A stretch of 42,410 bases of DNA from NCBI GenBank assembly GCA_021324355.1, contig JAJPJD010000023.1, positions 1 to 42,410 on the forward strand, in the 5' to 3' direction. The position numbers were made by a program, and so were the translations under genes. A model generated the notes under the pieces. That model made no database searches. It had not been told where the DNA came from and saw nothing but the letters and a program-made list of their open reading frames with translations. Position 1 is the stretch's first letter. Every line of letters starts with the position of its first letter. Source of the DNA: Actinomycetota bacterium. Its GTDB lineage: Bacteria > Actinomycetota > Acidimicrobiia > Acidimicrobiales > RAAP-2. Below are positions 20,366-40,370 of this stretch, piece after piece.

Positions 20366-20409
20366 AACCTATCTCAACTATGCGAACCTATCTCAACTAG
20401 ATTGACATA
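20366..20409. promoter_or_regulatory. Operator A, divergent promoter region of P450-1 and P450-2
   Basis: A near-perfect inverted repeat with core TCAA-CTAGA-TTGA (20393-20405) and outer arms TATC and CATA, 20389-20409. A 15-bp direct repeat, AACCTATCTCAACTA, occurs at 20366 and 20385, so a second half-site lies 19 bp to the left, facing P450-1. The right arm TTGACA is also the -35 hexamer of P450-2. The same core recurs at four other promoters of this island. I infer binding by the MarR regulator encoded at 34.95 kb. Confidence 0.7.
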
Positions 20410-20430
20410 ACTTGCGGATGGCCGTAGGCT
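20402..20430 (+). promoter_or_regulatory. Promoter of P450-2 (leaderless)
   Basis: TTGACA (20402-20407), a 17-nt spacer and TAGGCT (20425-20430), with only 8 nt before the ATG at 20439. This places the transcription start at or next to the start codon, as in actinobacterial leaderless mRNAs. The -35 lies inside operator A, so bound regulator would block polymerase. Confidence 0.65.
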
Positions 20431-20438
20431 GGTGATCG

Positions 20439-21668
20439 ATGCGGAACGATCCGGACCGGAAGGACCCGGGAGAACCCTTCCGCCACGAGCAGCAGTGGAA
20501 CAGGTGCGAGGGCATCGTCCGCTGGGATCCGTTCGGGCCCGAGATGGCGGACCCGGTTCGGGCTCTGGACCGGGTCCGGGTCCGTGCTCCTTTGGTCTGG
20601 ACCGATCGTGGCGGGGGGTTCTGGGCACTCACCCGCTACGAGGACATCGCTCGGGTTGCGCGAGACTTCCGCCGCTTCGGCCAGGGGCGACCGCAACGGG
20701 GTGCACCGCGCCCTCCCCTCGAGGTCGACCCGCCCCTGCACACCGCGTACCGCGCCATCCTGCGTCCCTACTTCACCGGGCAGAGGCTCGCGAGCTTCGA
20801 GGACGAGGTTCGCTCGCTGGTGGTGGCGCGGCTCCAGCCACTGCTCGACCAGGGGGGCGGCGACGTTGCGCCGACGCTCACCCACCCACTGCCTACTGAG
20901 GTGCTGTGTCGGTTCTTGCGCCTCCCTTCACAGAGCGCGCAGATCATCGACCGCCTCAGCGACGAGATCTACCGAAACGAGGAGGGCCGGGGCGGGAACC
21001 CCGAGGCCGTGGCAGCCGCCGACGCTGAGTTGACAGAGCATGCGTTCTCTGTGGTGTCGGCCCGACGCAGAGCGCCCGAGGACCCCGAAGTCGACCTGAT
21101 CAGCGGGCTCATTGCGGCCCGCATCGATGGCGCCGCCCTCGACGACGCCCAGATCGTGGAGGTGCTCCGGCTGCTCTTCGTCGCCGGGCACAACTCGACC
21201 ACCAGCTCGCTTGGGATCTGCCTGCTGGCGTTGGCTCGTGACCGCGAAGCCCAAGAGACATTGCGCGGGCGACCAGCGATGCTCCCGCGGGCGATCGACG
21301 AATTCCTGCGGCTCGAGACTCCGGTGCTTGGCATGCCCAGGACCGTCCGCGAGGAGACGGACCTGTTCGGTGCCCGGCTCGCCCCCGGCGACCAGCTCTT
21401 CTTGCTGTGGGGGTCGGCCAACCGGGACGATCGGGTCTTCGAGGAGGCCGCTACGTGTCGGCTCGATCGGCAACCGAACAAGCACATGGTCTTTGGCCGC
21501 GGTATCCATTCGTGCCTGGGGAGGGAGCTGGCCGAGATGGAGCTGCGAGTGGTGTGCGAGGAGCTGCTGGCCAGGACATCATCGATCGAGTTGGCTGGCG
21601 AGGTGACACGGACGAGCTGGGTTCGTTTCGGGGTGAGCCGGCTGCCGCTGCGCCTCTTCGCACGCTGA
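20439..21668 (+). CDS. Cytochrome P450 (P450-2)
   Basis: A 409-aa P450 with FWALTRYEDIARVARD, DPPLHTAYRAILRPYF, I-helix VAGHNSTTS, ExxR-type EFLRLETP, and heme loop FGRGIHSCLG with the Cys ligand. Like P450-1 it has Asn in place of the I-helix acid, and both keep the Thr pair, which suggests related enzymes. It starts at an ATG with a leaderless-type promoter. The dehydratase-like subunit gene follows after 10 nt, so it probably leads the operon P450-2, two dehydratase-like genes and CoA transferase. Confidence 0.93.
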   Translation: MRNDPDRKDPGEPFRHEQQWNRCEGIVRWDPFGPEMADPVRALDRVRVRAPLVWTDRGGGFWALTRYEDIARVARDFRRFGQGRPQRGAPRPPLEVDPPLHTAYRAILRPYFTGQRLASFEDEVRSLVVARLQPLLDQGGGDVAPTLTHPLPTEVLCRFLRLPSQSAQIIDRLSDEIYRNEEGRGGNPEAVAAADAELTEHAFSVVSARRRAPEDPEVDLISGLIAARIDGAALDDAQIVEVLRLLFVAGHNSTTSSLGICLLALARDREAQETLRGRPAMLPRAIDEFLRLETPVLGMPRTVREETDLFGARLAPGDQLFLLWGSANRDDRVFEEAATCRLDRQPNKHMVFGRGIHSCLGRELAEMELRVVCEELLARTSSIELAGEVTRTSWVRFGVSRLPLRLFAR

Positions 21669-21678
21669 GCACCTCGCG

Positions 21679-22824
21679 GTGACGGGCTCCAACGCGTCGC
21701 CTGACCAGATTCTCAGCCGGCTCGCCAGAGCCGCGTTTGACCCCCTCGGATGGGTCGAGACTGCGGCGAGCGGTCCGTACGTCGGTGTCGTCGGCTTCGA
21801 CGTACCGACCGAGATCCTGGTCGCGGCTGGGCTGCATCCGGTGCAGCTTCGAGGGGCCCCAATCGCCGCCACCGTGGCAGACTTCGACGGCCTGGGCCTG
21901 GATCCGGTGGCGGCGAGCCACGTCGCAAGCTTCGTGCGTGGTGACTACGCCGCACTCGACTACCTGGTCATCTCCCACGACCGGTCGATGAACGCCAAGC
22001 TCTTCTATGTGCTGCGCGAGCTGGCTCGCCTTGGAGAGCTACCGCAACGGCCCCGCCTGGCCTTCGTCGACTTGCGTCATATGCCGAGGCCGGCAACGAG
22101 CGCCTACAACCGGCGCCGAGTCCACCAGTTCGCCGAGCTGGTGGGTCGGTGGTGCGGCGGGACCCTCACCGACGTCGACCTGCAGCGGGCCATCGACGAG
22201 ACCAATCTGACCCGCCGCCTGCTGCGGTCGTTCGAGGCCGCACGGCGCAGTCCGGAGGCTCCCTTCCGTAGCACCGATGCGCTGGCGGTGTTGGGAGCGG
22301 CGCAGGTGATGGAGCCAGCGGAGTTCCGACGTGCAGTTGTGTCGTTGCTCGACGGCGTTGGAGGCAGGCCCGAGCGAGGGCCCCGACTCTACGTCTCGGG
22401 GAGCACCCCCGAGGACCCGCGTCCCTACCAAGCACTCGACTCCCTTGGCGCGGTGGTGGTGAGCGAGGACCACGACCTCGGACTGCGGCGGCGGGCCGAG
22501 CCCATCGAGCCCGGCGATGATCCTCTCGGCGCTCTGGCCAGCGCGTATGGCACCCCCCCGCCCGTTGCCGGGTGGGAGCCCCTCGGCGCCCGGGCTCGGC
22601 ACGCCGTCGACGCCGCTCGGGCGGCCGGGGCGACCGTAGTGCTCGAGGTCCGCTACCTCCACGATCGCGCTCTTGGGTGGGAGTGGCCGTCCATGCGGCG
22701 CGAACTGCTCCGTGGCGGAATCGACGGGCGAAGCTGGCAGATCCCGTGGCCCGAGGCGCCGGAGGTCCCCGAGCCGATTGCTTCCCTCATTGCCGGGGGA
22801 GATGCTCAGATGAGTCCCCGATGA
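21679..22824 (+). CDS. 2-hydroxyacyl-CoA dehydratase/benzoyl-CoA reductase-like subunit lacking cluster cysteines
   Basis: A 381-aa protein with the layout of HgdB/BcrC/BadD-type subunits: a Rossmann-like segment YVGVVGFDVPTEILVAAGLHP, a helix-rich FVRGDYAALDYLVISHDRS, and a later LYVSGSTPEDPRPYQALDSL domain. In the classical subunits these positions carry Cys ligands for a [4Fe-4S] cluster (GYxC..PxE, CPFV.., ..CD). Here they read FDVP, SFVR and SHDR, and the only Cys is in RWCGG, so it should not hold the usual cluster. It is coupled by ATGA to the second subunit and followed by a CoA transferase. Known relatives need an ATPase activator, which is absent here. Function is therefore uncertain; the assignment rests on fold-level similarity. 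Confidence 0.72.
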   Translation: MTGSNASPDQILSRLARAAFDPLGWVETAASGPYVGVVGFDVPTEILVAAGLHPVQLRGAPIAATVADFDGLGLDPVAASHVASFVRGDYAALDYLVISHDRSMNAKLFYVLRELARLGELPQRPRLAFVDLRHMPRPATSAYNRRRVHQFAELVGRWCGGTLTDVDLQRAIDETNLTRRLLRSFEAARRSPEAPFRSTDALAVLGAAQVMEPAEFRRAVVSLLDGVGGRPERGPRLYVSGSTPEDPRPYQALDSLGAVVVSEDHDLGLRRRAEPIEPGDDPLGALASAYGTPPPVAGWEPLGARARHAVDAARAAGATVVLEVRYLHDRALGWEWPSMRRELLRGGIDGRSWQIPWPEAPEVPEPIASLIAGGDAQMSPR

Positions 22825-24104
22825 GTGAAGCCAGCCGCCGGAGCACCAAGGTGCTCGCGGTGACCACCGATCTGAATCGCCGTCAACGCGAGTGGTTCGC
22901 CGAGGTCCGAGAACGGGCAGCCGAGCGGCCGATCGCTCTGGTGAACGCCGATGCGCCACACGAGGTGTTCCGGGCGGCAGGCGTCGACTACGTGGTGGTG
23001 CAATGGTGGTCGTCGCTGTTGTCTGCCAAGCAGCGGGCGAGCGCCTCCTTGTCCGCACTGCGAGAGCGGGGGTACCCGGACGACGACGAGCAGTACAGCG
23101 CGCTCGGACTGGGAGAGATGCTCGCCGGGGCCGGAGAGGAGCCATGGGGTGGCCTGCCCAGGCCGGCGATGCTGAGTGGCGTGGTCACGACCGACGGTTC
23201 GGCCAGGGTCCTTGAGGCTTGGGCGCAGGAGATCGGCGCGACCTGCTTTCTGTTCGAGAGCACGGTCGATCCCCGCCTGGACGTCGAGCGTCGGTGGTGG
23301 GACCGGCTGGCGCATGACTGGCCCTTGGTGCTGGACCCCGATCGGCTTGACCTCATGGTTGCTGAGCTGGAGGAGCTCATTGGCATCGTGGATCGACGGC
23401 TGGGTGCGGACTTCTCGGTCGACCGCCTCGCCGAGGTGATGGCGCTTGCAAATGAGCAGCTGGAGTACTACCGCCGGACGCGGGACCTGATCGCCACATC
23501 GGTCCCGGCCCCGGTCAGCGTGGTCGACACCATGCCAGCGACCATGGTCTCCCAGTGGCACCGGGGGAGCTCGGTCGGGCGGGATGCCGCCAAAGCTCTG
23601 TACGAGGAGGTCCGGGCACGGGTCGAAGCTGGCCAGTCAGCGTGCGCTGACGAGCAGATCCGGCTGATGTGGCTGGGCCGCGGCCTGTGGTCGGACATGG
23701 CCCTTTACCAGCACTTCGAAACCGAGTTCGGTGCGGTCTTCGTATGGTCGATGTACCTGAGCCTGGCCGCCGACGGCTACCTTCGCTATGGGGACGACCC
23801 GCTCCGTACTCTGGCCAGCCGGTTCGTGCCGATGATCGAGATCCTGCGCATGCCGACCTGGTCGAGCGCTTGGCACGACAAGGAGGCCCAACTGCACCAG
23901 ATCGACGGGGTCATCAGCCTGGGGGAGGAGGACTACTTCAGTGCTCGGGCGCTGGAGGCCCGGGGCATCCCGGTGCTGCGCATCGGGGCGACCAATGTCG
24001 ATCCGAGGACCTGGAGTCGGCGGGGCCTGATCGAGCAGATCAGTCGTTTCCTCGATGACCGGGTCGCGCCGGTCGCGGCCCGCAGGCGGGAGTCTGGCCG
24101 ATGA
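22821..24104 (+). CDS. Second 2-hydroxyacyl-CoA dehydratase-like subunit, cysteine-poor
   Basis: A 427-aa partner of the preceding gene. Family-like segments are RPIALVNADAPHEVFRAAGV, PRPAMLSGVVTTDGSARVLE and EIGATCFLFESTVDPRLDVE; a C-terminal half includes VDTMPATMVSQWHRG, LWLGRGLW-like MWLGRGLWSDMALYQHFE, and GVISLGEEDYFSARAL. The N-terminal Cys of HgdA-type subunits is replaced (ALVNADAP), and the usual Cys after the second strand is a Thr-Asp (TTDGS). Only two Cys are seen, neither at a canonical site. The ATG at 22821 overlaps the upstream stop (ATGA); the frame is open further upstream only as a shadow of the first subunit. The two proteins probably form a heterodimer. Confidence 0.72.
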   Translation: MSEASRRSTKVLAVTTDLNRRQREWFAEVRERAAERPIALVNADAPHEVFRAAGVDYVVVQWWSSLLSAKQRASASLSALRERGYPDDDEQYSALGLGEMLAGAGEEPWGGLPRPAMLSGVVTTDGSARVLEAWAQEIGATCFLFESTVDPRLDVERRWWDRLAHDWPLVLDPDRLDLMVAELEELIGIVDRRLGADFSVDRLAEVMALANEQLEYYRRTRDLIATSVPAPVSVVDTMPATMVSQWHRGSSVGRDAAKALYEEVRARVEAGQSACADEQIRLMWLGRGLWSDMALYQHFETEFGAVFVWSMYLSLAADGYLRYGDDPLRTLASRFVPMIEILRMPTWSSAWHDKEAQLHQIDGVISLGEEDYFSARALEARGIPVLRIGATNVDPRTWSRRGLIEQISRFLDDRVAPVAARRRESGR

Positions 24105-25351
24105 GCCGGCCAACAGCGGGAAGCCAGGCGCCGCTCGAGGGCCTGGTGGTGCTGGACCTCACCCGAGCCCTTGCCGGGCCGCTGGCCACGCTCCTTCTGG
24201 CAGGCCTGGGAGCCAAAGTGATCAAGATCGAGGACCCGGCGGCCGGCGACTCGGCCCGCACCAACGCCCCCTATGTGGGTCGCCAGGGACTCACCATCTC
24301 GCGCCGGGACGATAGCGACCTGGCGCTCGCCCACCTGAACCGAGGACGGGGCAAGCTCGGGATCACCCTTGACCTCAAGCATCCTGCCGGCCGGGAAGTC
24401 TTCTTCGACCTCGCCCGCCAGGCCGATGTCGTGGTGGAGAACTTCTCGGCCGGGACCGCCGAGCGCTTAGGGGTTGGCTACGACCAGGTTCGGGCGGTGA
24501 ACGAGGCTGTCGTCTACTGCTCGATCAGTGGGTTCGGCCACGGCCAACGGCCCGGCGTTGGGGCCATGGACGCAGTGATCCAGGCCCTGAGCGGGATCAT
24601 GGTGGCCAGCGGGGCCACTGACGACCCGCCGATCCGGGTCGGGGTCCCCCTGGCCGACGGCCTGGCTCCGTTGTACGCGGTGATCGGGATCCTCTCGGCT
24701 CTCAGGGTTCGAGACCACACTGGCCGAGGCCAGCACGTCGATGTCTCGATGCTCGGCGTCCTCACCTCTTTCGTCGCGATCGAAGACTGGGACGCGCTGG
24801 AGCGGCTGGGCCAGCCGATCCGGACCGGCGCCACACTGCCCCGGCTCGCCCCTTTCGGGGTCTTCGAATGTGCAGACGGCCATGTGGCGATCGTGGCGCC
24901 GCAGGACGCCATGGCTCACCGCCTATTCGTGGCGATGGGCCGGGCCGATCTGGTCGAGCACCCCGACTTCGCGACTCGCGACGGGCGGGTGCGGCACCAC
25001 CGCGACGTCGAGGCGGCTGTCGAGGCATGGACGGCCCAGCGCCCGGTCGCCGAGGTCGTCTCGGTGCTCGAGCAGGCCGGGGTGTCGGTGGCCCCGGTAC
25101 GCAAACCGGGTGAGGCGCTGCGCGACCCGGCGGTGCTCGAGCGCCGCGACGTGGTGCCGGTCCTCCATCCCGAACTGGGCGAGCTGTCCGACTTGCTCAC
25201 CTATGGCCTGCCGATCCGACTCTCCGAGAGCCCCACCGGGTATGGGGCGGCCGCACCAGGCCACGGGACAGACACGACGTCGGTCCTACGCGAGCTCCTC
25301 GGCTACACGCCGGCCCGTCTGGATGAGCTGCGGCGGGCCAGGGCGATCTGA
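24101..25351 (+). CDS. CaiB/BaiF-type (class III) CoA transferase
   Basis: A 416-aa enzyme that moves CoA between acids, making the CoA ester on which the neighbouring enzymes could act. The N-terminus LEGLVVLDLTRALAGPLAT and LGAKVIKIEDP, the region LNRGRGKLGITLDLKHPAGR and VVENFSAGTAERLGVGYD are typical. The catalytic Asp is probably D157 in GAMDAVIQALSG. Near the C-terminus are APVRKPGEALRDPAVLERRD and GLPIRLSESP. Its ATG overlaps the preceding stop (ATGA), so it is coupled to the dehydratase-like subunits. The acyl acceptor is not known. Confidence 0.92.
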   Translation: MSRPTAGSQAPLEGLVVLDLTRALAGPLATLLLAGLGAKVIKIEDPAAGDSARTNAPYVGRQGLTISRRDDSDLALAHLNRGRGKLGITLDLKHPAGREVFFDLARQADVVVENFSAGTAERLGVGYDQVRAVNEAVVYCSISGFGHGQRPGVGAMDAVIQALSGIMVASGATDDPPIRVGVPLADGLAPLYAVIGILSALRVRDHTGRGQHVDVSMLGVLTSFVAIEDWDALERLGQPIRTGATLPRLAPFGVFECADGHVAIVAPQDAMAHRLFVAMGRADLVEHPDFATRDGRVRHHRDVEAAVEAWTAQRPVAEVVSVLEQAGVSVAPVRKPGEALRDPAVLERRDVVPVLHPELGELSDLLTYGLPIRLSESPTGYGAAAPGHGTDTTSVLRELLGYTPARLDELRRARAI

Positions 25352-25477
25352 CGGCGGGCTGCCCGACGCCGTAACCGGACCGACGGGCACCAGACACCGC
25401 GCGCCAGGCCGCCTCGGCAGACCGGATGATGGCTCGGGCACCCCCCTGACCAGGACCCAGGTCGAGATGGGCCTGAT

Positions 25478-25494: not shown

Positions 25495-25515
25495 GTCGGG
25501 TCAGCCGGGACCCTC

Positions 25516-25532
25516 TATCAAGCTACTTGACG
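25516..25532. promoter_or_regulatory. Operator C, upstream of the second uptake operon
   Basis: Inverted repeat TCAA-GCTAC-TTGA (25518-25530), flanked by TA and CG, with the same arms and spacing as operators A and B. The right arm TTGACG (25527-25532) serves as the -35 of the promoter for the binding-protein operon. Confidence 0.7.
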
Positions 25533-25609: not shown

Positions 25610-26797
25610 GTGCGAACCAAGCACCTCGTAGCACTGTGTACCGCTCTCGCTGCCTCGCTGGGCGGCCTGGCGGTCGGCGGCGTCGGGCCGGCGTCGGCAG
25701 CAAGTTTCAAGGGGGCACCGGTCCAGATCGCGATGATCGTGGACCTCGAGGCGCCGGCGCTCGGGTTCAACTTCTCGGAGGCGGCCGCAGGAGCCAAGGC
25801 AGCGGTCGACGCGGTCAACGCGGCTGGCGGCATCCACGGGCACAAGCTGGTTCTTGACATCTGTGACGGCAAGGGCGACCCGAATACCGAGAATGCCTGC
25901 GGCCGCTCGGTCGAGGCCAGCCAAGCGGTGGCCACGGTCGGCGACGCCACGTTCATCAACCCTATGGCGCCGCTGCTCAGCGGCATGGCCGAGATCATGG
26001 ACAACCCTGCCCAGCCTGCAGAGCTCACCGCATCCAACTCTTTCCCGGTGACCGGCAGCGCCTTCCTCGGCAGCCTCGGCTCGCTCGGCTTGGCCCACAG
26101 CGTCATCCACGCCAAGACGGTGAGCCTCATGGCGGTCGGTCCCTCGTCGTCAGCTCTGTACTCGAGCCTCGGCAAGGTGGCGCCGTCGCTGGGCATGAAG
26201 ATCGCCAACGAGGTGACCCTCACTGGGTCCGAGACGGACCTCACCCCGGCGGTCGAGCAGGCCGCCAGCGGATCCCAGGCGATCATCCTGCTCATGCCGC
26301 CTGACAATGCCGCTCGGGTGATCGCCGCGCTGAAGCAGAACAGCATCAAGACCCCGGCGATCACCATCACCCTCACACCCCAAGACCTCAAGTCGCTGGG
26401 GTCGGCCGTGAACGGGGAGTACGAGATCAACTACTTCCCGACGCTCAACGACACCAAGGTCCCTGGGATCCGCCAGTACCTCCAGGAGATCAAGAAGTAC
26501 CAGCCGGGTTCGCTCGAGGATGGCACATCGATGATTCCCTGGTTGGGCGTCCACATGTTCGCCGAGGTGGCCAACAAGCTGAAGACGGTCACTCGGGCAA
26601 CCGTCTTGCAGGCCATGACCAACGCCAAAAACCTCTACGCCTGGGGACTCATCCCTCCCTACTCGACTGACAAGCCCTACACCGGGCAGGGAGGGTTGTT
26701 CCCAAGAGCCTTCAACGACGCATTCTGGTACGCGAAGTTTCGCGGGACGACCGCCTACCTGATCGAGAACCATGATGTTCCAGTCCCCAAGACCTGA
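25610..26797 (+). CDS. ABC transporter substrate-binding protein (LivK-like)
   Basis: A 395-aa secreted binding protein with a Sec signal peptide (hydrophobic ALCTALAASLGGLAVGG, cleavage likely after ASA near residue 31). There is no lipobox, unlike the other binding protein in the window, so it may be released or held by other means. The mature part begins with VQIAMIVDLEAPALGFNF and continues AAVDAVNAAGGIHGHKL and SQAIILLMPPDNAARVIAAL, the two-lobed Peripla_BP_6 fold. The GTG at 25610 has AAGGGGG just upstream; the frame is open to 25535, but the promoter -10 lies inside that part. It is first in the operon with LivHMG, LivF, MmgE/PrpD and esterase, so its ligand may be the pathway substrate. 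Confidence 0.87.
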   Translation: MRTKHLVALCTALAASLGGLAVGGVGPASAASFKGAPVQIAMIVDLEAPALGFNFSEAAAGAKAAVDAVNAAGGIHGHKLVLDICDGKGDPNTENACGRSVEASQAVATVGDATFINPMAPLLSGMAEIMDNPAQPAELTASNSFPVTGSAFLGSLGSLGLAHSVIHAKTVSLMAVGPSSSALYSSLGKVAPSLGMKIANEVTLTGSETDLTPAVEQAASGSQAIILLMPPDNAARVIAALKQNSIKTPAITITLTPQDLKSLGSAVNGEYEINYFPTLNDTKVPGIRQYLQEIKKYQPGSLEDGTSMIPWLGVHMFAEVANKLKTVTRATVLQAMTNAKNLYAWGLIPPYSTDKPYTGQGGLFPRAFNDAFWYAKFRGTTAYLIENHDVPVPKT

Positions 26798-26870
26798 GTA
26801 GGGCCCAGGCCGGGGTCGACGTGGGGGGCTGCACGGCGGCTCGATCCTCGGGGCCGGAACGGAGCACCCG

Positions 26871-31857: not shown

Positions 31858-33416
31858 GCGACATCGTGGTGGAAACCGATCGAGGCGCGCTGCGCGGCAC
31901 CCGGCGCGATGGCGTTGCGAGGTTCCTCGGCGTTCCGTACGCTGCCCCGCCAGTCGGTCGGCGTCGCTTCCTGCCGCCTGAGCCCGAGCGGTGGTCCGGG
32001 GTTCGGGACGCGCTGGCGTTCCCGCCGATCTCCATCCAGGCGCCCGAGCGGGCCGGTCCGAGCTCGCTCGCTGCGCTCCGAGGGGCAGCACCGGAGGCGC
32101 CGATGGGTGAGGACTGCCTCGCCCTCAACGTGTGGACTCGGGAGCTGTCCGGGCGGGCGCCGGTCATGGTCTGGCTCCACGGCGGCGGGTACACCACCGG
32201 CAGCGGGACGGGTGCGTCCACCGATGGCGAGATGCTGGCCCGGACCCACGGCGTCGTGGTGGTCACGGTGAACCACCGGCTCGGGTTGCTCGGGTTCCTG
32301 GACCTCTCGGGTCACCTCGGCCCGGCGTACGCACGGTCGGGAAACGTCAGCCTTCTCGATCTGGTCGCAGCGCTCGAATGGGTGCGCGACAACATCTCGT
32401 CCTTCGGCGGGGACCCGGGCTCGGTCACCCTGTTCGGATGCTCGGGGGGCGGTGGGAAGGTGGCCGCCCTCATGGCCATGCCTGCGGCTCAGGGGTTGTT
32501 CCACCGGGCGATCATCCAGAGCGGCCCGCCGTTCAGCTTCCGAGACCCCGACCGCGCTCGCCAGGTCACCCAGCAGGTGCTCGACCACCTCAAGGTGGCG
32601 CCGCAGGCGCTGGTGGAGGTGTCGCCCGAGCTCCTGTACCAAGCGCAGGCCGCACTGGGCGCCGGTGGCGGACCCTCCGAGGGTGGCATGGCCTTCGCGC
32701 CGACGGTGGACGGCGAGGTGCTGGTCGATTACCCGGAGGCGGCGTTCGCCCGGGGGATGGCTCGCGACGTGCCGTTGCTGATCGGGACCAACCGGGACGA
32801 GGCCCGCTTCGTGCTCGCCGTGGCGCCTCGGGTGGCGGCCTCGCCGCCGCACGACGACGCCGAGGTGGCGTGGCTGGTCGCCCCCGGCTTCGACGGGTCG
32901 CCGGAGCCGGTCGTGGCCGCCTACCGAGCCCGCTACCCCGAGCTCTCGAGTGCCGACCTCCGCCTGCTGATCGAGACCGAGCAGTTCCGGATCCGGAGCC
33001 TCCGGCTCGCCGACGCCAAGGCGCGCCACGGCTCGGCGCCGGTGTTCGTCTACCGCATGGACTGGTCGTCACCGAGCTTCGCGGCGTGGGGGGCGTTCCA
33101 CAGCCTCGAGGTCCCGCTCGTGTTCGCCAACACGCAGGCGCCGGCCATGGCATCGGACCCCGAGGCCCGACGGTTGGCCGGGGAGATGAGCCGCGCGTGG
33201 GTCGGCTTCGCGACCAGCGGGCGACCCTGGGCGCCCGGGGTGTCGTGGGACCCCTATGACCCTGACCGGCGGGCCACCATGGTCATCGATCGGACCTGGA
33301 GCCTCGAGTTCGACCCAATGGGGGAGGAGCGCAGCCTGTGGGACGCCGAGGCGCTCAGCCACCGGACCCGTCCGTGGGGCCGCCTGCTGGCTGTCCCCCC
33401 GGGCCGCCCCGGGTGA
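31854..33416 (+). CDS. Type-B carboxylesterase
   Basis: A 520-aa alpha/beta hydrolase of the carboxylesterase family. It shows FLGVPYAAPPVGRRRF, EDCLALNVW, the oxyanion motif HGGGY, and the nucleophile elbow GCSGG with Ser197 (the usual sequence is GESAGG, so Glu is replaced by Cys). The acid lies in GTNRDEARF and the His in FHSLEVPLVF. There is no signal peptide, so it should act inside the cell on an imported ester. The GTG at 31854 overlaps the MmgE/PrpD stop. It is the last gene of the operon and is convergent with the hydrolase-domain gene. Confidence 0.92.
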   Translation: MSDIVVETDRGALRGTRRDGVARFLGVPYAAPPVGRRRFLPPEPERWSGVRDALAFPPISIQAPERAGPSSLAALRGAAPEAPMGEDCLALNVWTRELSGRAPVMVWLHGGGYTTGSGTGASTDGEMLARTHGVVVVTVNHRLGLLGFLDLSGHLGPAYARSGNVSLLDLVAALEWVRDNISSFGGDPGSVTLFGCSGGGGKVAALMAMPAAQGLFHRAIIQSGPPFSFRDPDRARQVTQQVLDHLKVAPQALVEVSPELLYQAQAALGAGGGPSEGGMAFAPTVDGEVLVDYPEAAFARGMARDVPLLIGTNRDEARFVLAVAPRVAASPPHDDAEVAWLVAPGFDGSPEPVVAAYRARYPELSSADLRLLIETEQFRIRSLRLADAKARHGSAPVFVYRMDWSSPSFAAWGAFHSLEVPLVFANTQAPAMASDPEARRLAGEMSRAWVGFATSGRPWAPGVSWDPYDPDRRATMVIDRTWSLEFDPMGEERSLWDAEALSHRTRPWGRLLAVPPGRPG

Positions 33417-33421
33417 GGGCC

Positions 33422-33445
33422 CCTCAGAACTCGCCTCAGAACTCG
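33422..33445. repeat. Tandem 12-bp duplication at the end of the hydrolase-domain gene
   Basis: CCTCAGAACTCG occurs twice in a row (33422-33433 and 33434-33445). The second copy holds the stop codon of the minus-strand gene, and the first repeats the same end of the gene behind it. It probably arose by replication slippage. Confidence 0.6.
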
Positions 33446-34863
33446 ACTTTGTGCGCCTCGGCGGCGATCGCGGCGGCGTCGGCCGGAAGCAGCCAGCGCT
33501 GGGCGGCCAGTTCGGCGCAGCGCTCGGCCACCAGCCGGGCGTACTCGGTCGGGGTGCCATAGAGGCGGCGCAGCGTTTCGCCCTCGAAGGGCACTTTGTG
33601 CCCGATGAGGCTGCCCAGGGCGACCACCCGACCTTCAGGGGTCCGGGGCACCCCGGCGTCGCCTGACGCCAGGGTGCTGTGCGGAACGTAGGTGGCGGTC
33701 GGCACGTCCACGTAGGGCGTGCGGACACCGCCCAGCGCGTTGGCGTGCTCGTCCCGGGCCAGAGGCTCGGCTCCCTGGAGGCCACCCTTGACCGGCCCGC
33801 CTTCCTCCGCGTAGGCAAAGCGGTCGGCCCGGGGCGGAGGAACCCCGCGGGCGACCCACGCCTCCAGGTTGTCGAAGACCGCCGCCGCCACCCGGTCCAT
33901 CGGGAAGTCGCTCGGGGTCTCGAGGATCTCGGGGTCGGCGGGGAGCAGTCCTCGGCCGCGTAACTGGCACTGCTCGACGCCGCCGGCCACCCGGCGGTTG
34001 ATGTGACTGGCGCCAGCCACCTCGAACAGGCGGTAGCGGTCGTCCGGCTCGTCGGCGTCGGGGCGTCGGGTCGCCCGGTTGGTTTCGGCCTCGCACTCCG
34101 AGAGCAGCTCGATGATCGGGACTTGGTGCGGCCTGACGGTTCGTCGGGGGTCGTCGGCCTCGATGGGCGGATCGTCTGGGTGCAAGGTGAGGTATCCGCC
34201 GAAGAAAGCGCCCGAGGAGATGGCAAAGACGTAGCCGTCGAACAGCGGCCCGCCGTCGGGGCGGCAAGCCCGATCGCCGAACCCTTCGGCCACGAAGGTC
34301 CGCCACAGGCTGCCGGTGTACGACCAGCCCGACGCGTAGACCCGTGCGACTCCGAAGCCCCCGAGCGGCCCGGTATCCGAACGGACCAGTGCCCCGGTCT
34401 GGGCGAGGACATCCCAACGGAGGCCGTCGCTGGGCAGCGAGACGGTGGCGTAGGCATCGGGGTCGTAGGCGGCCAGGGCGGCGGCACCCATGTTGGTGAC
34501 CGTCACCCCGACCCAGGCATGGCCCGCCGACACCAGGTAGGGGGCGAGGCTCGCCCAGCTGAGCCCGCGGTCACCGGAGGGATGGAGCGCTTCGAAGTGC
34601 ACGACGCCGCTGAACGCGCGCCGATCGCGGGGCCGGCGTACGAGCATGCGGGTCTCGTACTCGAGCGCGTCGGCTCGGGCTGCTGGGTTCCCGGCCGCGT
34701 CGCGATCGTAGAGGTGGGCCTTGCCCGACACCACGAACTCCTCCTCGACGTAGCCCGCCGGAGCCAGGTCGAAGCCCACCTTCTCGTCGGGGAGGTAGGC
34801 GGTTCCGAAGGGCACCCGGGCCCGCCCGAGCCGCCAGGCAGCAGGCGGGGGCGGTTCGCTCAC
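33436..34863 (-). CDS. Alpha/beta hydrolase domain protein (Abhydrolase_10-like)
   Basis: A 475-aa protein resembling the alpha/beta hydrolase domain family (PF20091). Features are LVSAGHAWVGVTVTNMG, the putative nucleophile region VYASGWSYTGSLWRTFV (GWSYTG fits the G-x-S-x-G elbow), VPIIELLSECEAE, and FEVAGASHINR with a likely catalytic His. Substrates of the family are not established. The GTG at 34863 has AGGGG 9 nt upstream. An ATG at 34905 is also in frame, but it lies inside operator E. The gene is divergent from marR and shares that operator, so it is probably part of the regulon. Confidence 0.75.
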   Translation of the reverse strand: MSEPPPPAAWRLGRARVPFGTAYLPDEKVGFDLAPAGYVEEEFVVSGKAHLYDRDAAGNPAARADALEYETRMLVRRPRDRRAFSGVVHFEALHPSGDRGLSWASLAPYLVSAGHAWVGVTVTNMGAAALAAYDPDAYATVSLPSDGLRWDVLAQTGALVRSDTGPLGGFGVARVYASGWSYTGSLWRTFVAEGFGDRACRPDGGPLFDGYVFAISSGAFFGGYLTLHPDDPPIEADDPRRTVRPHQVPIIELLSECEAETNRATRRPDADEPDDRYRLFEVAGASHINRRVAGGVEQCQLRGRGLLPADPEILETPSDFPMDRVAAAVFDNLEAWVARGVPPPRADRFAYAEEGGPVKGGLQGAEPLARDEHANALGGVRTPYVDVPTATYVPHSTLASGDAGVPRTPEGRVVALGSLIGHKVPFEGETLRRLYGTPTEYARLVAERCAELAAQRWLLPADAAAIAAEAHKVEF

Positions 34864-34899: not shown

Positions 34900-34916
34900 T
34901 ATCATGCTTCTTGAGA
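34900..34916. promoter_or_regulatory. Operator E, between the hydrolase-domain gene and marR
   Basis: Core TCAT-GCTTC-TTGA (34902-34914), flanked by TA and GA, matches the other operators with one mismatch in the left arm. It lies 37 nt before the hydrolase-domain start and about 40 nt before the marR start, a place suited to autoregulation. Confidence 0.6.
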
Positions 34917-34953
34917 CCGGTCGCCGAGGCGTTCGCTCGGTACAGTGAGCCCG

Positions 34954-35439
34954 GTGAGCGAGGTGGGGTCGAGCGGTCGTCGCCGACGGCTGGCCCACGT
35001 CCTGCACGCCCTGTCCCGAGGGTTGCGCCGCGAGCTCTCGGACCAGCTGCGGCCGTTAGGGGTCGACGCTCGCGAGTGGACCACGCTGCAGTTCATCGAC
35101 GACCGGCCGATGTCGTCGAACGCCGAGCTCTCCCGCCGGCTTGGCGTCACGCCCCAGGCGGTCCACACGGTGGTGCGCGAGCTCGAGGCTCGGCAGCTGA
35201 TCGTGCGCAAGCCCGACCCCACCCACGGCCGGATCGCTCGGTTCGTCCTGACCGAGTCGGGACGGTCGGTCCTGCAGGCCGCCAACGCGGTCGCCGATCG
35301 GGTGGAGCGTCGCCTGCTGACCGCCCTCGGGCCGGCCGAGCAGCGGGCGTTGCTCGGCTCGGCGGTGGCCCTGCTGCGGCGCCTGGAGGGCGCCGAGGAG
35401 GCTGCCGGGCGGCGGGCCCGGGCAGCCGGCCCCGGTTGA
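34954..35439 (+). CDS. MarR family transcriptional regulator
   Basis: A winged-helix DNA-binding protein of about 161 aa. HVLHALSRGLRRELSDQL forms the first helix, AELSRRLGVTPQAVHTVVRE the recognition region, LEARQLIVRKPDPTHGRIAR the wing (the D-x-R motif reads DPTHGR), and the C-terminal helix is for dimerisation. MarR proteins usually repress and release on binding small phenolic or acyl-CoA ligands. TACAGT at 34941-34946 lies 7 nt before the GTG at 34954, which suggests a leaderless start there; GTG at 34945 overlaps the -10 and is less likely. It is the only regulator in the island, and operator E lies in its own promoter region. Confidence 0.88.
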   Translation: MSEVGSSGRRRRLAHVLHALSRGLRRELSDQLRPLGVDAREWTTLQFIDDRPMSSNAELSRRLGVTPQAVHTVVRELEARQLIVRKPDPTHGRIARFVLTESGRSVLQAANAVADRVERRLLTALGPAEQRALLGSAVALLRRLEGAEEAAGRRARAAGPG

Positions 35440-35451
35440 GCGGCTGCCCGG
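35418..35451. terminator. Strong hairpin between convergent marR and capA-like gene 1
   Basis: CCGGGCAGCCG and CGGCTGCCCGG form a perfect 11-bp GC-rich stem around a 12-nt loop that contains the marR stop codon. The stop of the opposite gene lies 5 nt away. There is no T-tract, but the position suits a bidirectional terminator or a shield against colliding transcripts. Confidence 0.6.
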
Positions 35452-35455
35452 TGGG

Positions 35456-36577
35456 TCACAGGAACCGGACCCAGCCCTCCTCCCAGCGGAACCTGGTGTC
35501 CAGCCCGGCGTCGGCGGTGATCTGCTCGACGTAGGCCGCGACCGACCGGCCGAGCGGATCGTCCCCGGCGACCTGCGGGCGCGCTGCTTCGTCGATGTAG
35601 GCCGGCTGGAAGCCGGCGCTGCGCACCCCTCGTTCGTCGACGGTGACCCGGGCGATCATGGTGTGCCGAGACTGGCGTGAGTACGGCCAGTTCTTGACGG
35701 TTCGGTCTGGCTCGATGCCGCGCAGGATGGGCGAGCGCCGGCCAAAGGAGGGCCGGTTCGTCGTCTCGCTCCGGGGATTGGACCGCGGGTCGTAGGCGGT
35801 CACGAAGTGGTTGATCCCGTGGAAGATCGGGCGGCCCTTGTACACCTCGACGCCCCGCAAGATGTGGGCGTGGTGCCCGACGACGACGTCGGCCCCGGCG
35901 TCGATGGCGGCCCGGGCCAGTGCCCGCTCGTACTGGGCCAGTTCGGCGTGGACGAAGCCCATGCCCTTGTGGAACGAGACCGAGACGACGTCGACCCGGG
36001 ACGCCAGCTCCTCGACGTCGGCCTGCATGTCCTCGAGCGACGACTGCTCGACGAAGGTGTACTCGGTCGGCTGGCTGCCAGGGCTGGCCATCTCCAGCTC
36101 GTAGTGGGAGAGCACGTTGACCCAGGCCGCCCCGGCCTTGAGTGGGGTGGCCCAGGACTCACGGGGACCGACCGCGTTGTAGCTGAGGAACCCGAGGCTG
36201 AGCCCGTCCCGGCGGATCTCCGCCGGCCGACGGGCCTCGGCCAGGGTCATCCCGGCCCCGGTGGTGGCGATGCCGAGCCGGTGGAGCTCGGTCAGGGTGT
36301 CTTCGACCCCGTTGGGTCCCTGGTCGAAGGTGTGGTTGCCGGCCAGGGTGGCCACGTCGACGCCGCAGTCGACCAAGGCGGCCAGGTTCTCCGGTGGCGC
36401 CGCCGGCGCCGGGTACTCGACCGCGCAGTAGGCACCCCGGTCGGTGTGGGGCCACTCCACGTGGGCCACGGTCACGTCGTAGGCACGCAGCGCGTCGCGA
36501 GCCAGGTCGAAGTACCGGTCCGCCCGCGGCGCCCCCAGGATGAGGTCCCCGACGTAGCCGATCGTGCGCGCTGGCAT
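35456..36577 (-). CDS. CapA-family metallophosphoesterase-like protein 1
   Basis: A 373-aa protein of the CapA/PgsA superfamily. It shows the opening GYVGDLIL (residues 7-14), ATLAGNHTFDQGPNG, VSVSFHKGMGF and GADVVVGHHAHILRGVEVYK then GRPIFHGI, the metal-binding phosphoesterase motifs. There is no signal peptide or membrane anchor, unlike secreted capsule CapA, and no other poly-gamma-glutamate gene is near, so a cytoplasmic phosphoesterase-like role is more likely. The ATG at 36577 has AGGAG 7-8 nt upstream, next to operator B. It is divergent from P450-3. Confidence 0.87.
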   Translation of the reverse strand: MPARTIGYVGDLILGAPRADRYFDLARDALRAYDVTVAHVEWPHTDRGAYCAVEYPAPAAPPENLAALVDCGVDVATLAGNHTFDQGPNGVEDTLTELHRLGIATTGAGMTLAEARRPAEIRRDGLSLGFLSYNAVGPRESWATPLKAGAAWVNVLSHYELEMASPGSQPTEYTFVEQSSLEDMQADVEELASRVDVVSVSFHKGMGFVHAELAQYERALARAAIDAGADVVVGHHAHILRGVEVYKGRPIFHGINHFVTAYDPRSNPRSETTNRPSFGRRSPILRGIEPDRTVKNWPYSRQSRHTMIARVTVDERGVRSAGFQPAYIDEAARPQVAGDDPLGRSVAAYVEQITADAGLDTRFRWEEGWVRFL

Positions 36578-36588
36578 CGAGTCGCTCC

Positions 36589-36611
36589 TATCTCAACCTT
36601 CTTGACAGATA
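36589..36611. promoter_or_regulatory. Operator B, between capA-like gene 1 and P450-3
   Basis: Core TCAA-CCTTC-TTGA (36593-36605) with outer TATC on the left and CAGATA on the right. The left end touches the ribosome binding site of the capA-like gene, and the right arm TTGACA is the -35 of P450-3, so one bound protein could control both directions. Confidence 0.7.
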
Positions 36612-36629
36612 CGGTAGCCCAGCTATCCT
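36602..36629 (+). promoter_or_regulatory. Promoter of P450-3
   Basis: TTGACA (36602-36607), a 16-nt spacer and TATCCT (36624-36629). The start would be near 36636, after the GTG at 36633 and before the ATG at 36705. Confidence 0.6.
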
Positions 36630-36704
36630 GGTGTGTGGCGGCCACCGGCCAGTGCCGCCTTGGACCGAGGGTCCTCGTCGCTGGAGGAGGCGTACCGGCG
36701 CACC

Positions 36705-37904
36705 ATGGTCGACGCAGCGCAGCCCGTCACCGACGACTTCGACCCGTTGGCACCGGAGACCTTCGAGAGCCCGCACCAGCTCTACCGGGAACTGCGGGCC
36801 CGCTGCCCGGTCGCGTACACCTCGGCCTACGGCGGTTTCTGGGCCCTGCTTCGCCACGCCGACGTCGACGCCGCGGCCCGCGATCCCGAGCTGTTCATCT
36901 CCTCGGTCCGGGCGGTCGTGCCCTCGGACCCCCGCGGCATCCGGCGGCCTCCGCTCAACTTCGACGCCCCGGCCCACACCCCATTCCGCACCGCGCTCGA
37001 ACGGACGCTCGGCCGGGAGCGGCTGGCGGCCATGGCGCCCCGGCTCCGTGCCCACGCGATCGCACAGCTCGAGCCGCTCCTCAGGTCCGGGGAGGGGGAC
37101 ATCGCCAAACAGTTCGGCACCACCTACCCAGCCTTCGTCGCCGCCGAGTGGCTCAACCTGAAGGAGTCGGAGGTGTGGCAGTTGGCCGAGACGGCCAGCA
37201 TCTGGGTCGACGCCTGGCGCCGTCAGGACGCCGAGACCGTCACCGACAAGAGCAATGCGATGTACGCGATGGCACGGGCGCTGGTGGCCGACCGCCGGGC
37301 GAATCCCCGTCCGATCACCGAGGACCCGGCCAGCTCGCTGCTGGCGGCGACCGACCACGAGGGCCGCCCGCTCGACGAGGAGCTGATCGTCGGCGCGCTG
37401 CGCCAGTCCCTGGTGGTAGGCCTGGTCGCCCCCCCAATCCTGCTCGGGGCGATCGCGGTGCACCTGGCCCGGGACCCCGGGCTGCACGACCGGCTCCGGG
37501 ACGATCCGGCGCTGGTGCCACCGGCGCTCGAGGAGCTGCTGCGCCTCTACGCCCCGTACCGCGGCTTCTCCCGGACGGTCAGCCGGCCGGTGGTGCTCCA
37601 TGGCCGGCGGATCGTCCCGGGGGTACCGGTGACCTTGGTCTACGCCTCCGCCAACCGGGACGAGTCGGTGTTCTCCGACCCCGACGCCTTCGTCCTCGAC
37701 CGCCCGAACATCGGCCGGCACCTGGCGTTCGGCGCCGGCCCGCACCGCTGCCTGGGGATGAACCTGGCCCGCTTGAGCCTGCGGATCGCGCTCGAAGAGC
37801 TGGTGCGCCGGGTCCGCCGGATCGAGGTGGTTGGGGAGATCGAGCCCACTCGGATGCCCGAGCTCGGGCCCCAGCGGGTGCCGGTGCGGCTGCTCCTGGC
37901 CTGA
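36705..37904 (+). CDS. Cytochrome P450 (P450-3)
   Basis: A 399-aa P450 with DDFDPLAPETFESPHQLYRE, FWALLRHADVDAAARD, ExxR-type ELLRLYAPYRG and heme loop FGAGPHRCLG with the Cys ligand. The I-helix, normally A-G-x-D/E-T, reads VVGLVAPPILLG, so the acid and Thr that deliver protons to bound oxygen are missing. I chose the ATG at 36705, 14 nt after GGAGGAGG; the frame is also open from a GTG at 36633, but that lies at or before the expected transcript start. It is convergent with P450-4 and controlled by operator B. Confidence 0.9.
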   Translation: MVDAAQPVTDDFDPLAPETFESPHQLYRELRARCPVAYTSAYGGFWALLRHADVDAAARDPELFISSVRAVVPSDPRGIRRPPLNFDAPAHTPFRTALERTLGRERLAAMAPRLRAHAIAQLEPLLRSGEGDIAKQFGTTYPAFVAAEWLNLKESEVWQLAETASIWVDAWRRQDAETVTDKSNAMYAMARALVADRRANPRPITEDPASSLLAATDHEGRPLDEELIVGALRQSLVVGLVAPPILLGAIAVHLARDPGLHDRLRDDPALVPPALEELLRLYAPYRGFSRTVSRPVVLHGRRIVPGVPVTLVYASANRDESVFSDPDAFVLDRPNIGRHLAFGAGPHRCLGMNLARLSLRIALEELVRRVRRIEVVGEIEPTRMPELGPQRVPVRLLLA

Positions 37905-37923
37905 GCACGGGCCCTCGACGGGC

Positions 37924-39177
37924 TCAGCGAGGCACCACCCGCATCGGCAATCTCCGGGGGCCGTAGACCGGCCACGACATCCACTCGGGCTCGCCGTCGA
38001 GCTCGACGGTCCGAGTGCGGGCCAGCAGCTCCTCCACGCCGACCCGAAGCTCAAGTCGAGCCAGGTGTTGGCCGATACAGCTGTGCGGTCCGTGCCCGAA
38101 CGCCAGGTGGTGCTGTCGCCGGCCGAGCACGAGGTCGTCGGGGCGCTCGAAGACCGCGTCGTCTCGGTTGGCCGAGGTGAGCACGATCGCCACCTGGTCC
38201 CCGGGGTGCAGGTCGACGCCTGACACCGTGACCGGCCGGCGCACCGTGCGGGCGAATCCCTGGTTGGGGGTGTAGAGCCGAAGCAGCTCCTCGACCGCGT
38301 CGGCCGTGCGGGCCGGCTCCGCCCGCAGCCGCGTCTGCAGCGCGGGATCGCCGCACAGATGGATCAGCGCGCTGGCCAGCGCACAGGTGGGAGCGATGTG
38401 GGCGGCGATGATCATCTGGCGGACGCTCCCGGTGATGGTCTCGACGTCCACCGGCCGGCCGTCGGGCCGTGCCCGGGCCAGCGCCGCGACGACGTCGTGC
38501 TCGGGGTCGGCACCCTCCGCCAGCCGCTCCTCGACGAACTGCCGGCAGTACCGGGTGAGCAGCTGGCTCTCGGCCTCGGCGGTCGCCGCGTCCTCCGCGA
38601 TCTGGGCCGCCTCGAAGCGTTCGCTGTGCTCCTGGAGCGCCCGTCCCTGCTCGGGCGAGACGTTGAGCATGGCCAGGAAGGCCAGCGTGGCGAGGGGCGA
38701 GCTGAAGGCGGCGACCATGTCGGCCCGGCCCGCCTCGAGGACCGGTTCCAACAGCTGCGACGCGATCGCTCGGACCGCTGGCTCGAGCGCGGCCGCCCGC
38801 CGCTTGGTGAAGGCGACATTGAGAGCCTGGCGGTAGACGGTGTGTTCGGGCGGGTCGTAGTGGAGCGGCGGCCGCCGGCCCGAGACCGGGTTCTTCGGGA
38901 TCACCACCCCCTCGGCACTGGAGAAGGTGGTGGGATCGGTGCTCGCCCGGACGATGTCCTCGTAGCGGGTCAGCGCGAAGAAGCCGCCCCAACGCTCGCA
39001 CCGGGCCACCGGCGCCTCGCGTCGGAGCCGGGCGAAGGTGGGATGGGGGTTGGCGCGGAACTCCGCTGCGGTCGGGTCGAAGTCCCCGATCGCGCTCCGC
39101 TCCCGGTTCGTGCCCTTGGCGCCCGGCGGCCGGCTCGGTTCGTCGGTGGTGTCTTCTCGGTGTGGCTCTTCGGTCAT
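37924..39177 (-). CDS. Cytochrome P450 (P450-4)
   Basis: A 417-aa P450. FFALTRYEDIVRAS, DPPEHTVYRQALNVAF, ExxR-type ELLRLYTPNQG and heme loop FGHGPHSCIG (Cys ligand) are clear. The I-helix reads IAAHIAPTCA, also without the usual Gly and acid, and the sequence around EELLRLYTPNQGFARTV is very like P450-3 (EELLRLYAPYRGFSRTV), so the two form a pair. The ATG at 39177 follows the capA-like gene 2 stop by 13 nt, with GAGG upstream, so both are in one minus-strand operon. The open frame that extends to 39675 is a shadow of the upstream gene. Confidence 0.92.
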   Translation of the reverse strand: MTEEPHREDTTDEPSRPPGAKGTNRERSAIGDFDPTAAEFRANPHPTFARLRREAPVARCERWGGFFALTRYEDIVRASTDPTTFSSAEGVVIPKNPVSGRRPPLHYDPPEHTVYRQALNVAFTKRRAAALEPAVRAIASQLLEPVLEAGRADMVAAFSSPLATLAFLAMLNVSPEQGRALQEHSERFEAAQIAEDAATAEAESQLLTRYCRQFVEERLAEGADPEHDVVAALARARPDGRPVDVETITGSVRQMIIAAHIAPTCALASALIHLCGDPALQTRLRAEPARTADAVEELLRLYTPNQGFARTVRRPVTVSGVDLHPGDQVAIVLTSANRDDAVFERPDDLVLGRRQHHLAFGHGPHSCIGQHLARLELRVGVEELLARTRTVELDGEPEWMSWPVYGPRRLPMRVVPR

Positions 39178-39190
39178 GGTGCCTCGTCGC

Positions 39191-40315
39191 TCATTCCGGC
39201 AGCTCGTGCAGCTGGGCGCGGGTACCGTCAAAGTCGAGCCGGCAGCGCAGGCCGGCCTCGGTGCCGATCGCCTCCACGTAGTCCACGACCGCCTGCCCAG
39301 TGGCACCGCCGACCGGGACCGGTCGGGCTCCTTCGTCGATCCAGCACGGGATGAGCGCAGCCACCAGGCTCCCGTCGGCAGAGACGGTGCACTCGGCGAT
39401 GGCGGTGTTGCGACTCTCGGGGTGGAAGGGATAGGTCGGCATGGCCGGATCGGGCACGAAGCCGAACAGCTCCATCCGTCGCCGAGCCCAGGCGGCCGCC
39501 TCTGGGGTCTTCGTGTTGGCCGGCGACAGTGCCCGGGTGACCGTGACGAAGTTCCCGAGGCCGTGGAAGATCGGGCGACCCTTGTACAGCTCGACCCCCC
39601 GCAAGATGTGGGCATGGTGGCCGACCACCACGTCGGCGCCAGCATCGATCGCGGCCCTGGCCACCTCCCGCTCATACATCGCGAGCTGGGCTCGCAGGTG
39701 ACCGATGCCCTTGTGGAAGGCGACCACCACCACGTCGACCCGCGGCCGCAGGTCGGCCAGGTCCGCTCGCATCGCGTCGAGGCTCTCGGGGGTGGCGAAG
39801 GTGTAGACGGTCGGCGGTCCTCCGGGAGCGGCGTGGTCGAGCTCGTAGTGGGTGAGGACGTTGAGATAGGCGCACCCGGGCTTGGAGGGGCGGGCCCAGC
39901 TCTCCTTGGGGCCGACGCAGTTGTAGCTGAGCACCCCGACCCGCATGCCCGCCGCCTCGACCACCGCCGGCCGCCGGGCCTCGTCGAGGTTCATCCCGGC
40001 CCCGGTGGTCGCGATGCCGTAGCGCGCCAGCGTCTCGACGGTGTCCTCGATCCCCTGGGGCCCGGCATCGGCGATGTGGTTGCCGGCCAGGGTGGCCACC
40101 GTGAAGCCGGCCTCAGCCAGGGCGGCCAGGTGCTCGGGATCCGACGGGCGGGCCGGGACGTCGGTCGAGTAGACCGGGGCCGCCCGCCGAGAGTGAGGCA
40201 CCTCGACGTGGCCGATCACCACGTCACCTTGGCGCAGGAACTCGGCGGACGGGGCGAAATAGGAGGACGGGTCGGGCTCGTCCAAGATGAGGTCGCCGAC
40301 GCAGAGGATCCGCAT
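39191..40315 (-). CDS. CapA-family metallophosphoesterase-like protein 2
   Basis: A 374-aa paralogue of CapA-like protein 1, with MRILCVGDLIL at the start, ATLAGNHIADAGPQGIEDT, VVVAFHKGIGHL, and GADVVVGHHAHILRGVELYK followed by GRPIFHGLGNFV. The two proteins share long identical stretches, including GIATTGAGM and DAGADVVVGHHAHILRG, so they come from a duplication. The ATG at 40315 starts the conserved part; the frame is open to 40477, but that part overlaps the divergent MBL gene and its promoter. It lies upstream of P450-4 in one operon, under operator D. Confidence 0.87.
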   Translation of the reverse strand: MRILCVGDLILDEPDPSSYFAPSAEFLRQGDVVIGHVEVPHSRRAAPVYSTDVPARPSDPEHLAALAEAGFTVATLAGNHIADAGPQGIEDTVETLARYGIATTGAGMNLDEARRPAVVEAAGMRVGVLSYNCVGPKESWARPSKPGCAYLNVLTHYELDHAAPGGPPTVYTFATPESLDAMRADLADLRPRVDVVVVAFHKGIGHLRAQLAMYEREVARAAIDAGADVVVGHHAHILRGVELYKGRPIFHGLGNFVTVTRALSPANTKTPEAAAWARRRMELFGFVPDPAMPTYPFHPESRNTAIAECTVSADGSLVAALIPCWIDEGARPVPVGGATGQAVVDYVEAIGTEAGLRCRLDFDGTRAQLHELPE

Positions 40316-40353
40316 CACCCGGCTTGGCTCGAGGACTCGGCAGCCACCACCGG

Positions 40354-40370
40354 TATCAGGGTACTTGACA
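40354..40370. promoter_or_regulatory. Operator D, between capA-like gene 2 and the MBL-fold gene
   Basis: Core TCAG-GGTAC-TTGA (40356-40368), one mismatch from the others, inside a wider inverted repeat of ACCGGT on both sides. It lies 39 nt before the capA-like start. For the MBL gene it sits upstream of the core promoter, so control there may differ. Confidence 0.6.

Follow-up and report, generated by a model that had tools for sequence, protein, structure and literature searches.

Five palindromic sites as predicted operators of a MarR-family regulator in a catabolic gene island of an Actinomycetota bacterium

The window analysed here is a stretch of 42,410 nucleotides (nt) from an Actinomycetota bacterium; it is the complete contig C29 in the numbering of this analysis, and the genome comprises 2,445,054 bases in 64 contigs. 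According to Pfam, an island of genes in this window encodes four cytochromes P450, hydrolases, a coenzyme A (CoA) transferase, an HGD-D-like pair, an MmgE/PrpD protein and an ATP-binding cassette (ABC) transporter, together with g19, a regulator of the MarR family. Sites of one palindromic type recur in five promoter regions of the island. Judged from sequence comparison, these five sites are very probably operators of the g19 protein (gene at 34945-35439), through which it would control a catabolic regulon. The initial annotation had proposed such a MarR regulon, and the proposal is supported by conservation of the site in related clusters, by an operator type that follows the clade of the MarR protein, and by the recognition-helix motif of g19.

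Position, unit and rarity of the five sites

The sites were initially described as TCAA-N5-TTGA at 20393, 25518, 34902, 36593 and 40356, all between genes and four of them in divergent promoters. Our own gene calls bear this out: the four divergent pairs are g8/g9, g18/g19, g20/g21 and g23/g24, and the site at 25518 lies between the tandem genes g12 and g13. The positions of the TCAA-N5-TTGA core were right, but the full unit is longer. Alignment of the five sites gives a 17-bp palindrome, TATCA-N7-TGA(T/C)A, with TATCAAG-N3-CTTGATA as its ideal form. The five sites are as follows, with ranks from the matrix described below.

20391..20407, + strand: operator 1, TCTCAACTAGATTGACA, between the divergent genes g8 (P450) and g9 (P450); matrix rank 4; right arm TTGACA, then 17 nt, then TAGGCT
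25516..25532, + strand: operator 2, TATCAAGCTACTTGACG, upstream of the probable transporter operon g13-g17; matrix rank 3; TTGACG, 17 nt, TACGTT
34900..34916, + strand: operator 3, TATCATGCTTCTTGAGA, between the divergent genes g18 (hydrolase) and g19 (marR); matrix rank 1
36591..36607, + strand: operator 4, TCTCAACCTTCTTGACA, between the divergent genes g20 (CapA-like) and g21 (P450); matrix rank 5; TTGACA, 16 nt, TATCCT
40354..40370, + strand: operator 5, TATCAGGGTACTTGACA, between the divergent genes g23 (CapA-like) and g24 (metallo-hydrolase); matrix rank 2

The left arm of operator 1, TATCTCAACTA, recurs 19 bp upstream (20370-20380 and 20389-20399), and the upstream copy is perhaps a second half-site.

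The exact core TCAA-N5-TTGA occurs three times in the window (20393, 25518 and 36593), against 0.06 expected from 100 shuffles. With one mismatch allowed, 10 places match where 4.34 would be expected, 34902 and 40356 among them; since this class is rich in chance matches, the 13-bp core alone cannot separate these two sites from chance. The full unit does separate them: a matrix built from 13 different TATCA-N7-TGATA sites of other genomes, none from the window, ranks the five reported sites first to fifth in the 42-kb window, at 20.3, 16.5, 16.4, 15.7 and 13.6 bits. The sixth-best site, at 15071 inside an epoxide-hydrolase gene, scores 12.8 bits. In 500 first-order Markov windows the fifth-best score never exceeded 9.94 bits, so that 0 of 500 reached the observed fifth score, and 1 of 1000 column-permuted matrices reached it.

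Genome-wide, the exact core has 8 occurrences, 3 of them in the window. The genome scan suggested in the initial annotation shows that the motif is not evenly spread through genes: the pattern TMTCA-N6-TTGAVR, which was fitted afterwards to the five sites and is descriptive only, has seven matches, namely the five window sites and two further places, C6:15607 and C45:15347. Places within 3 mismatches of TATCAAGNNNCTTGATA number 12. Four are window sites; the others are 15071, four more in called genes, C41:24678 (inside a gene tentatively read as an aldo/keto reductase), C21:2832 and C39:214502. Leaving aside the window sites and the C39 site, 6 of the 7 places are inside genes. The place at C21:2832 (L037 2832), TATCAAGCTGCTTGGTG, is an operator-like site of 17 bits that precedes a sigma-70-family gene by about 54 nt.

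The operator and the MarR clades in related clusters

Among 396 genomes of the phylum, g11 of the HGD-D-like pair has two relatives at 53% identity (in genomes G499 and G667). A four-sequence alignment (A2) was then searched against a collection of genomes of named species, and the best 80 of 216 relatives were kept. One set consists of 44 loci with gene calls (43 actinobacterial, one from Chloroflexi), and a second set of 37 loci contains the other 36 and the plasmid locus L079; the latter set is mostly proteobacterial, with one short actinobacterial locus (L107). Across the 81 loci, a CoA-transferase match is found in 79 and a CapA-like match in 62, and a g10 match is absent only in L079, L107 and L137.

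In the 44 loci, TATCAAGNNNCTTGATA is matched with up to 3 mismatches at 24 places, none of which falls in a called gene. The DNA outside called genes makes up 11% of the bases, and it is an upper bound on intergenic DNA because gene calls miss some genes. When 399 permuted half-sites were tried, their matches in this DNA averaged 1.24 and never exceeded 8. The matrix finds 24 places of at least 13 bits in these loci, 23 of them outside called genes. Moreover, the palindrome can be recovered without any use of the window. When perfect palindromes with five-base arms were counted in the intergenic DNA of the 44 loci, TATCA-N7-TGATA came first (13 loci, 15 copies) and CAGGA-N1-TCCTG second (10 loci, 19 copies), and every copy of both (15/15 and 19/19) lies outside called genes. 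With six-base arms, ACAGGA-N1-TCCTGT came first (8 loci) and ATATCA-N7-TGATAT next (7 loci).

The places of these sites also correspond to those in the window. Among the 13 called MarR genes of clade A (clades defined below), 8 have an upstream site within 3 mismatches, at 10-132 nt in L104, L110, L116, L117, L143, L156 and L159 and at 267 nt in L152. In ten loci a site lies 51-56 nt ahead of the gene whose position puts it first in the transporter operon; in L117, the only one of the ten whose gene list was examined, this gene has a lipoprotein-like start. Nocardioides luteus has a perfect palindrome 82 nt upstream of a CoA-transferase gene, and Pseudonocardia sp. MH-G8 has a site 40 nt upstream of MmgE/CapA genes. 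Thus the layout in related clusters is that of the window, with sites before marR, a transporter operon and enzyme operons.

In a MarR tree of 27 rows, clade A holds 13 rows from Micrococcales families, Nocardioides and Modestobacter, and clade B holds 11 rows from Streptomyces, Amycolatopsis, a second Nocardioides protein and, at its base (support 87/94), a paralogue of g19 from contig C39 of the genome studied here. Of the 44 loci, 14 have a clade-A MarR, and 12 of these contain TATCA-N7-TGATA, which is also present in 1 of the 30 others. All 9 loci with a clade-B MarR contain CAGGA-N-TCCTG, which is also present in 1 of the remaining 35. A clade counts as absent where none of its proteins was found in about 21 kb per locus, and L144 was assigned to clade A by sequence, not by the tree. 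Fisher p values of 5e-8 (clade A) and 1e-8 (clade B) are nominal, several loci being closely related. Recognition helices differ correspondingly: they start with Q-A-[A/T]-H in 13/13 clade-A rows and with Q-S-M-A-D in 7/7 Streptomyces proteins of clade B, and the remaining clade-B rows have QTMNE, QSAAD, QTMAG and, in the C39 paralogue, QAGNQ. The clade of the regulator predicts the type of operator. In Nocardioides luteus, whose locus carries both MarR clades, CATCAGGATTCCTGTGA stands directly beside TATCAAGTTGCTTGATA in one divergent promoter region (L134 7548-7581).

These relations can be taken one step further, with about even confidence. The window sites may belong to a cross-genus family of regulons for a hitherto undescribed aerobic degradation pathway with an HGD-D-like pair lacking an invariant Cys, a CoA-transferase and CapA-like hydrolases. 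Each of the two MarR clades would then recognise its own dialect of a common operator, the first TATCAAG-N3-CTTGATA and the second TnnCAGGA-N-TCCTGnnA, with the dialect set by helix residues, QAxH against QSMAD and its relatives (QSAAD, QTMAG).

The g19 protein and competing explanations

The g19 protein has a MarR winged helix-turn-helix domain, scoring 50 bits with the Pfam model MarR_2 (cut-off 27) and 33.2 bits with MarR (cut-off 24.6). Its presumed recognition helix is TPQAVHTVVRELEARQ (residues 69-84), in which Q-A-V-H corresponds to the clade-A pattern QAxH. By helix and by operator, then, the window appears to side with clade A, although the tree leaves g19 alone. MarR-family operators are palindromes in the promoters of marR and of target genes, with a length of 16-20 bp according to PMC10458429; the 17-bp palindrome, present upstream of g19 and in four other promoter regions, falls within this size range. 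Autoregulation of g19 through operator 3 is probable.

Several observations weigh against this assignment. In the tree, g19 forms a long branch of its own at an open fork, and it is only about 30% identical to clade-A MarR proteins of other clusters, so that it represents a lineage apart rather than a simple orthologue. All five window sites are imperfect palindromes, with 2, 2, 2, 3 and 4 mismatches to the ideal. In the related loci, one matrix match of at least 13 bits lies inside a called gene (L114 3831), and for 5 of the 13 clade-A MarR genes the preceding 300 nt contain no site with 3 mismatches or fewer. The C39 paralogue belongs to clade B by the tree and has the helix Q-A-G-N, yet it has an AAG-type site, so the clade rule is not strict. 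Neither motif was found in the clusters of G499 and G667, which are of the same phylum, share HGD-D sequence at 53% and carry P450 genes, and the 37 other loci hold 0 copies of TATCA-N7-TGATA or CAGGA-N-TCCTG. Of 396 genomes of the phylum, 6 contain the exact palindrome, and in one of these a MarR gene is seen next to it.

Conservation in related clusters, which the initial annotation had named as a check, holds for actinobacterial clusters with a MarR of the right clade and fails for clusters without such a MarR. G667 has a MarR-like gene, 31% identical to g19, about 10 kb off and outside the rows of the tree. A dozen of the 37 other loci have matrix scores of 13-18 bits, in six cases inside genes, and in 14 loci with MarR homologues of relatives (L010-L023) no matrix site exceeds 5.2 bits. 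The lack of both motifs from G499, G667 and the 37 loci argues that the operator belongs to the regulator and not to the pathway as such. Its exact occurrence in other genomes of the phylum means that the sequence is not exclusive to this system. Three of the six copies of TATCAAG-N3-CTTGATA, in three genomes of one genus (L163-L165), lie by glycine-rich reading frames (two were checked and gave no Pfam match), and one of these three is also 75 nt from a MarR gene; the other three copies have no called gene.

Outside the window, the genome itself contains a second locus with a comparable combination of elements.

C39:214502-215766 (L036 10003-11267): operator-like site with promoter, C-terminal HGD-D remnant and MarR paralogue

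The site at C39:214502, CATCAAGGAGCTTGACA, precedes a remnant that covers only the C-terminal part of HGD-D and is 36% identical to g11 over 106 residues (2e-14, tblastn). This remnant runs into the nearest paralogue of g19, at 35-37% identity (37% over 116 residues, 2e-22). Hence an operator-like site, an HGD-D sequence and a MarR gene stand together twice in one genome, and the C39 locus is apparently what decay has left of another such cluster.

This paralogue bears on the strongest alternative, in which the operators are real and their main regulator is another protein, either the MarR paralogue at C39:215362 or a winged-helix protein from outside the window, with g19 acting at most on its own promoter. 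The paralogue is the nearest relative of g19 in the genome and has an upstream AAG-type site despite grouping with clade B, and five of the six exact palindromes in other genomes have no MarR seen beside them. Nevertheless, it is g19 that has the clade-A helix QAxH, where the paralogue has QAGN, and g19 sits among the five sites and adjoins the best-scoring one. We therefore hold control mainly by another protein to be unlikely.

Far less likely still, the sites could be promoter elements only, with the right arm serving as a -35 hexamer TTGACA, the left arm accidental or an upstream promoter element, and no repressor involved. TTGACA or TTGACG is indeed present at 4 of the 5 sites, and the initial suggestion that the right arm doubles as -35 at three of them agrees with our data, in that TANNNT follows at the right spacing of 16-17 nt at 20393, 25518 and 36593; a stricter promoter scan passes only 36602 (TTGACA-16-TATCCT). 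Behind the right arm of operator 5, though, no -10 is seen; other genomes conserve both arms, their right arm ends in TGATA and not TGACA, and plain promoters would not track the MarR clade. The independent matrix, the palindrome count and the controls led us to reject this explanation. Chance recurrence in a high-GC window, with the sites selected by eye, to which the one-mismatch excess of the core over expectation might point, is barely credible and is refuted as far as computation reaches by the independent matrix, its nulls, the permuted half-sites and the palindrome count.

Genes of the island and the predicted regulon

With g19 as the preferred regulator, the genes on either side of the five operators would form its regulon. 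They are listed below, with operon membership given as probable.

17031..20341, - strand: g6 PEP_mutase, g7 Amidohydro_2 and g8 cytochrome P450; probable operon left of operator 1
20439..25351, + strand: g9 P450, g10 and g11 HGD-D-like pair, g12 CoA-transferase III; probable operon right of operator 1
25610..33416, + strand: g13 binding protein, g14 permease-ATPase fusion, g15 ATPase, g16 MmgE/PrpD, g17 carboxylesterase; probable operon behind operator 2
33436..34815, - strand: g18, Abhydrolase_10 family (Pfam)
34945..35439, + strand: g19, MarR-family regulator, proposed repressor (Pfam MarR_2, 3.3e-13)
35456..36577, - strand: g20, CapA/PGA_cap family (Pfam)
36660..37904, + strand: g21, cytochrome P450; start uncertain, with an ATG behind a GGAGGAGG stretch further downstream
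37924..40318, - strand: g22 P450 and g23 CapA/PGA_cap; probable operon left of operator 5
40416..41216, + strand: g24, metallo-beta-lactamase-fold hydrolase (Pfam)

In g14 (26871-29606), two permease stretches and an ATPase are fused. An unusual fusion is found at 4141-7131, where a single frame of 996 amino acids comprises a major facilitator superfamily transporter domain and, behind it, two matches to ABC ATPases.

The gene content suggests uptake and oxidative breakdown of some compound. Anaerobic HGD-D and benzoyl-CoA reductase enzymes have conserved Cys residues as iron-sulphur ligands. The proteins g10 and g11 match Pfam HGD-D and score far under the NCBIfam cut-offs of the anaerobic enzymes, and no invariant Cys column was found for this pair (21679-24104) among 42 g10-like and 77 g11-like proteins; the commonest Cys columns hold 26/42 and 61/77, respectively. 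A classical iron-sulphur dehydratase is therefore unlikely, and the pair possibly performs a different chemistry in aerobes.

No close relative of g11 was found in 397 genomes of the order, its own genome included, where other genomes give at most 29% identity, and no close orthologue of g19 was found in 60 relatives, the best match in another genome having 5.1e-17. Because g11 and g19 lack close relatives in the nearest genomes, the island may have been acquired horizontally.

In the mechanism that we propose, g19 would act by repression rather than activation. A ligand-free g19 dimer would sit on the 17-bp palindrome, and at three sites it would cover the -35 hexamer and keep RNA polymerase away; a review (PMC5487221) describes the blocking of -35 recognition as a common mode of repressor action. 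The promoters held in this way would be those of the P450, HGD-D/CoA-transferase, transporter, CapA-like and hydrolase operons and of marR itself. The pathway substrate, or a CoA thioester made from it, would free g19 and turn on uptake and degradation together. Our guess of a CoA thioester as inducer comes from the CoA-transferase in the regulon and from other catabolic MarR systems, which according to the same review are induced by such compounds.

HcaR of Acinetobacter and CouR, which are among the closest solved structures to g19 by sequence, resemble this proposal as described in PMC5487221: a MarR dimer binds a palindromic operator in marR and catabolic promoters, and a ligand releases repression. 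This comparison concerns architecture, and the two systems differ in serving another pathway, with no HGD-D or CapA genes named in the passages considered. The best match of g19 among solved structures is Rv2887, a MarR protein of Mycobacterium tuberculosis (2e-15), whose helix TPQAMNTV is close to TPQAVHTV of g19; its 27-bp footprint, as given in PMC5526998, is GC-rich with the palindrome CGATCG and without TATCA...TGATA. Clusters of CoA-transferase, HGD-D, HGD-D and CapA genes in Arthrobacter, Citricoccus, Microbacterium, Nocardioides, Streptomyces and Pseudonocardia encode homologous enzymes, about 50% identical for g11 and g12 and up to 64% for g23. Many of them share the operator type and a MarR gene with the window, from which they differ in gene order, in the transporter, in the lineage of the MarR protein, and in P450 genes, which were matched in 11 of 81 loci within the stretch covered.

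A catabolic regulon under MarR control is of a well-known kind. No title or abstract in the open-licence literature searched describes this operator or cluster, the regulon or the operator dialects. The present analysis would tie about 19 genes of unassigned purpose in a 24-kb island into one regulon. As the same operator and a related regulator are present in culturable bacteria, the inducer and the pathway can be sought there by a de-repression assay. Moreover, two MarR clades that are each paired with an operator dialect provide a natural experiment on how the recognition helix of a MarR protein determines DNA specificity.

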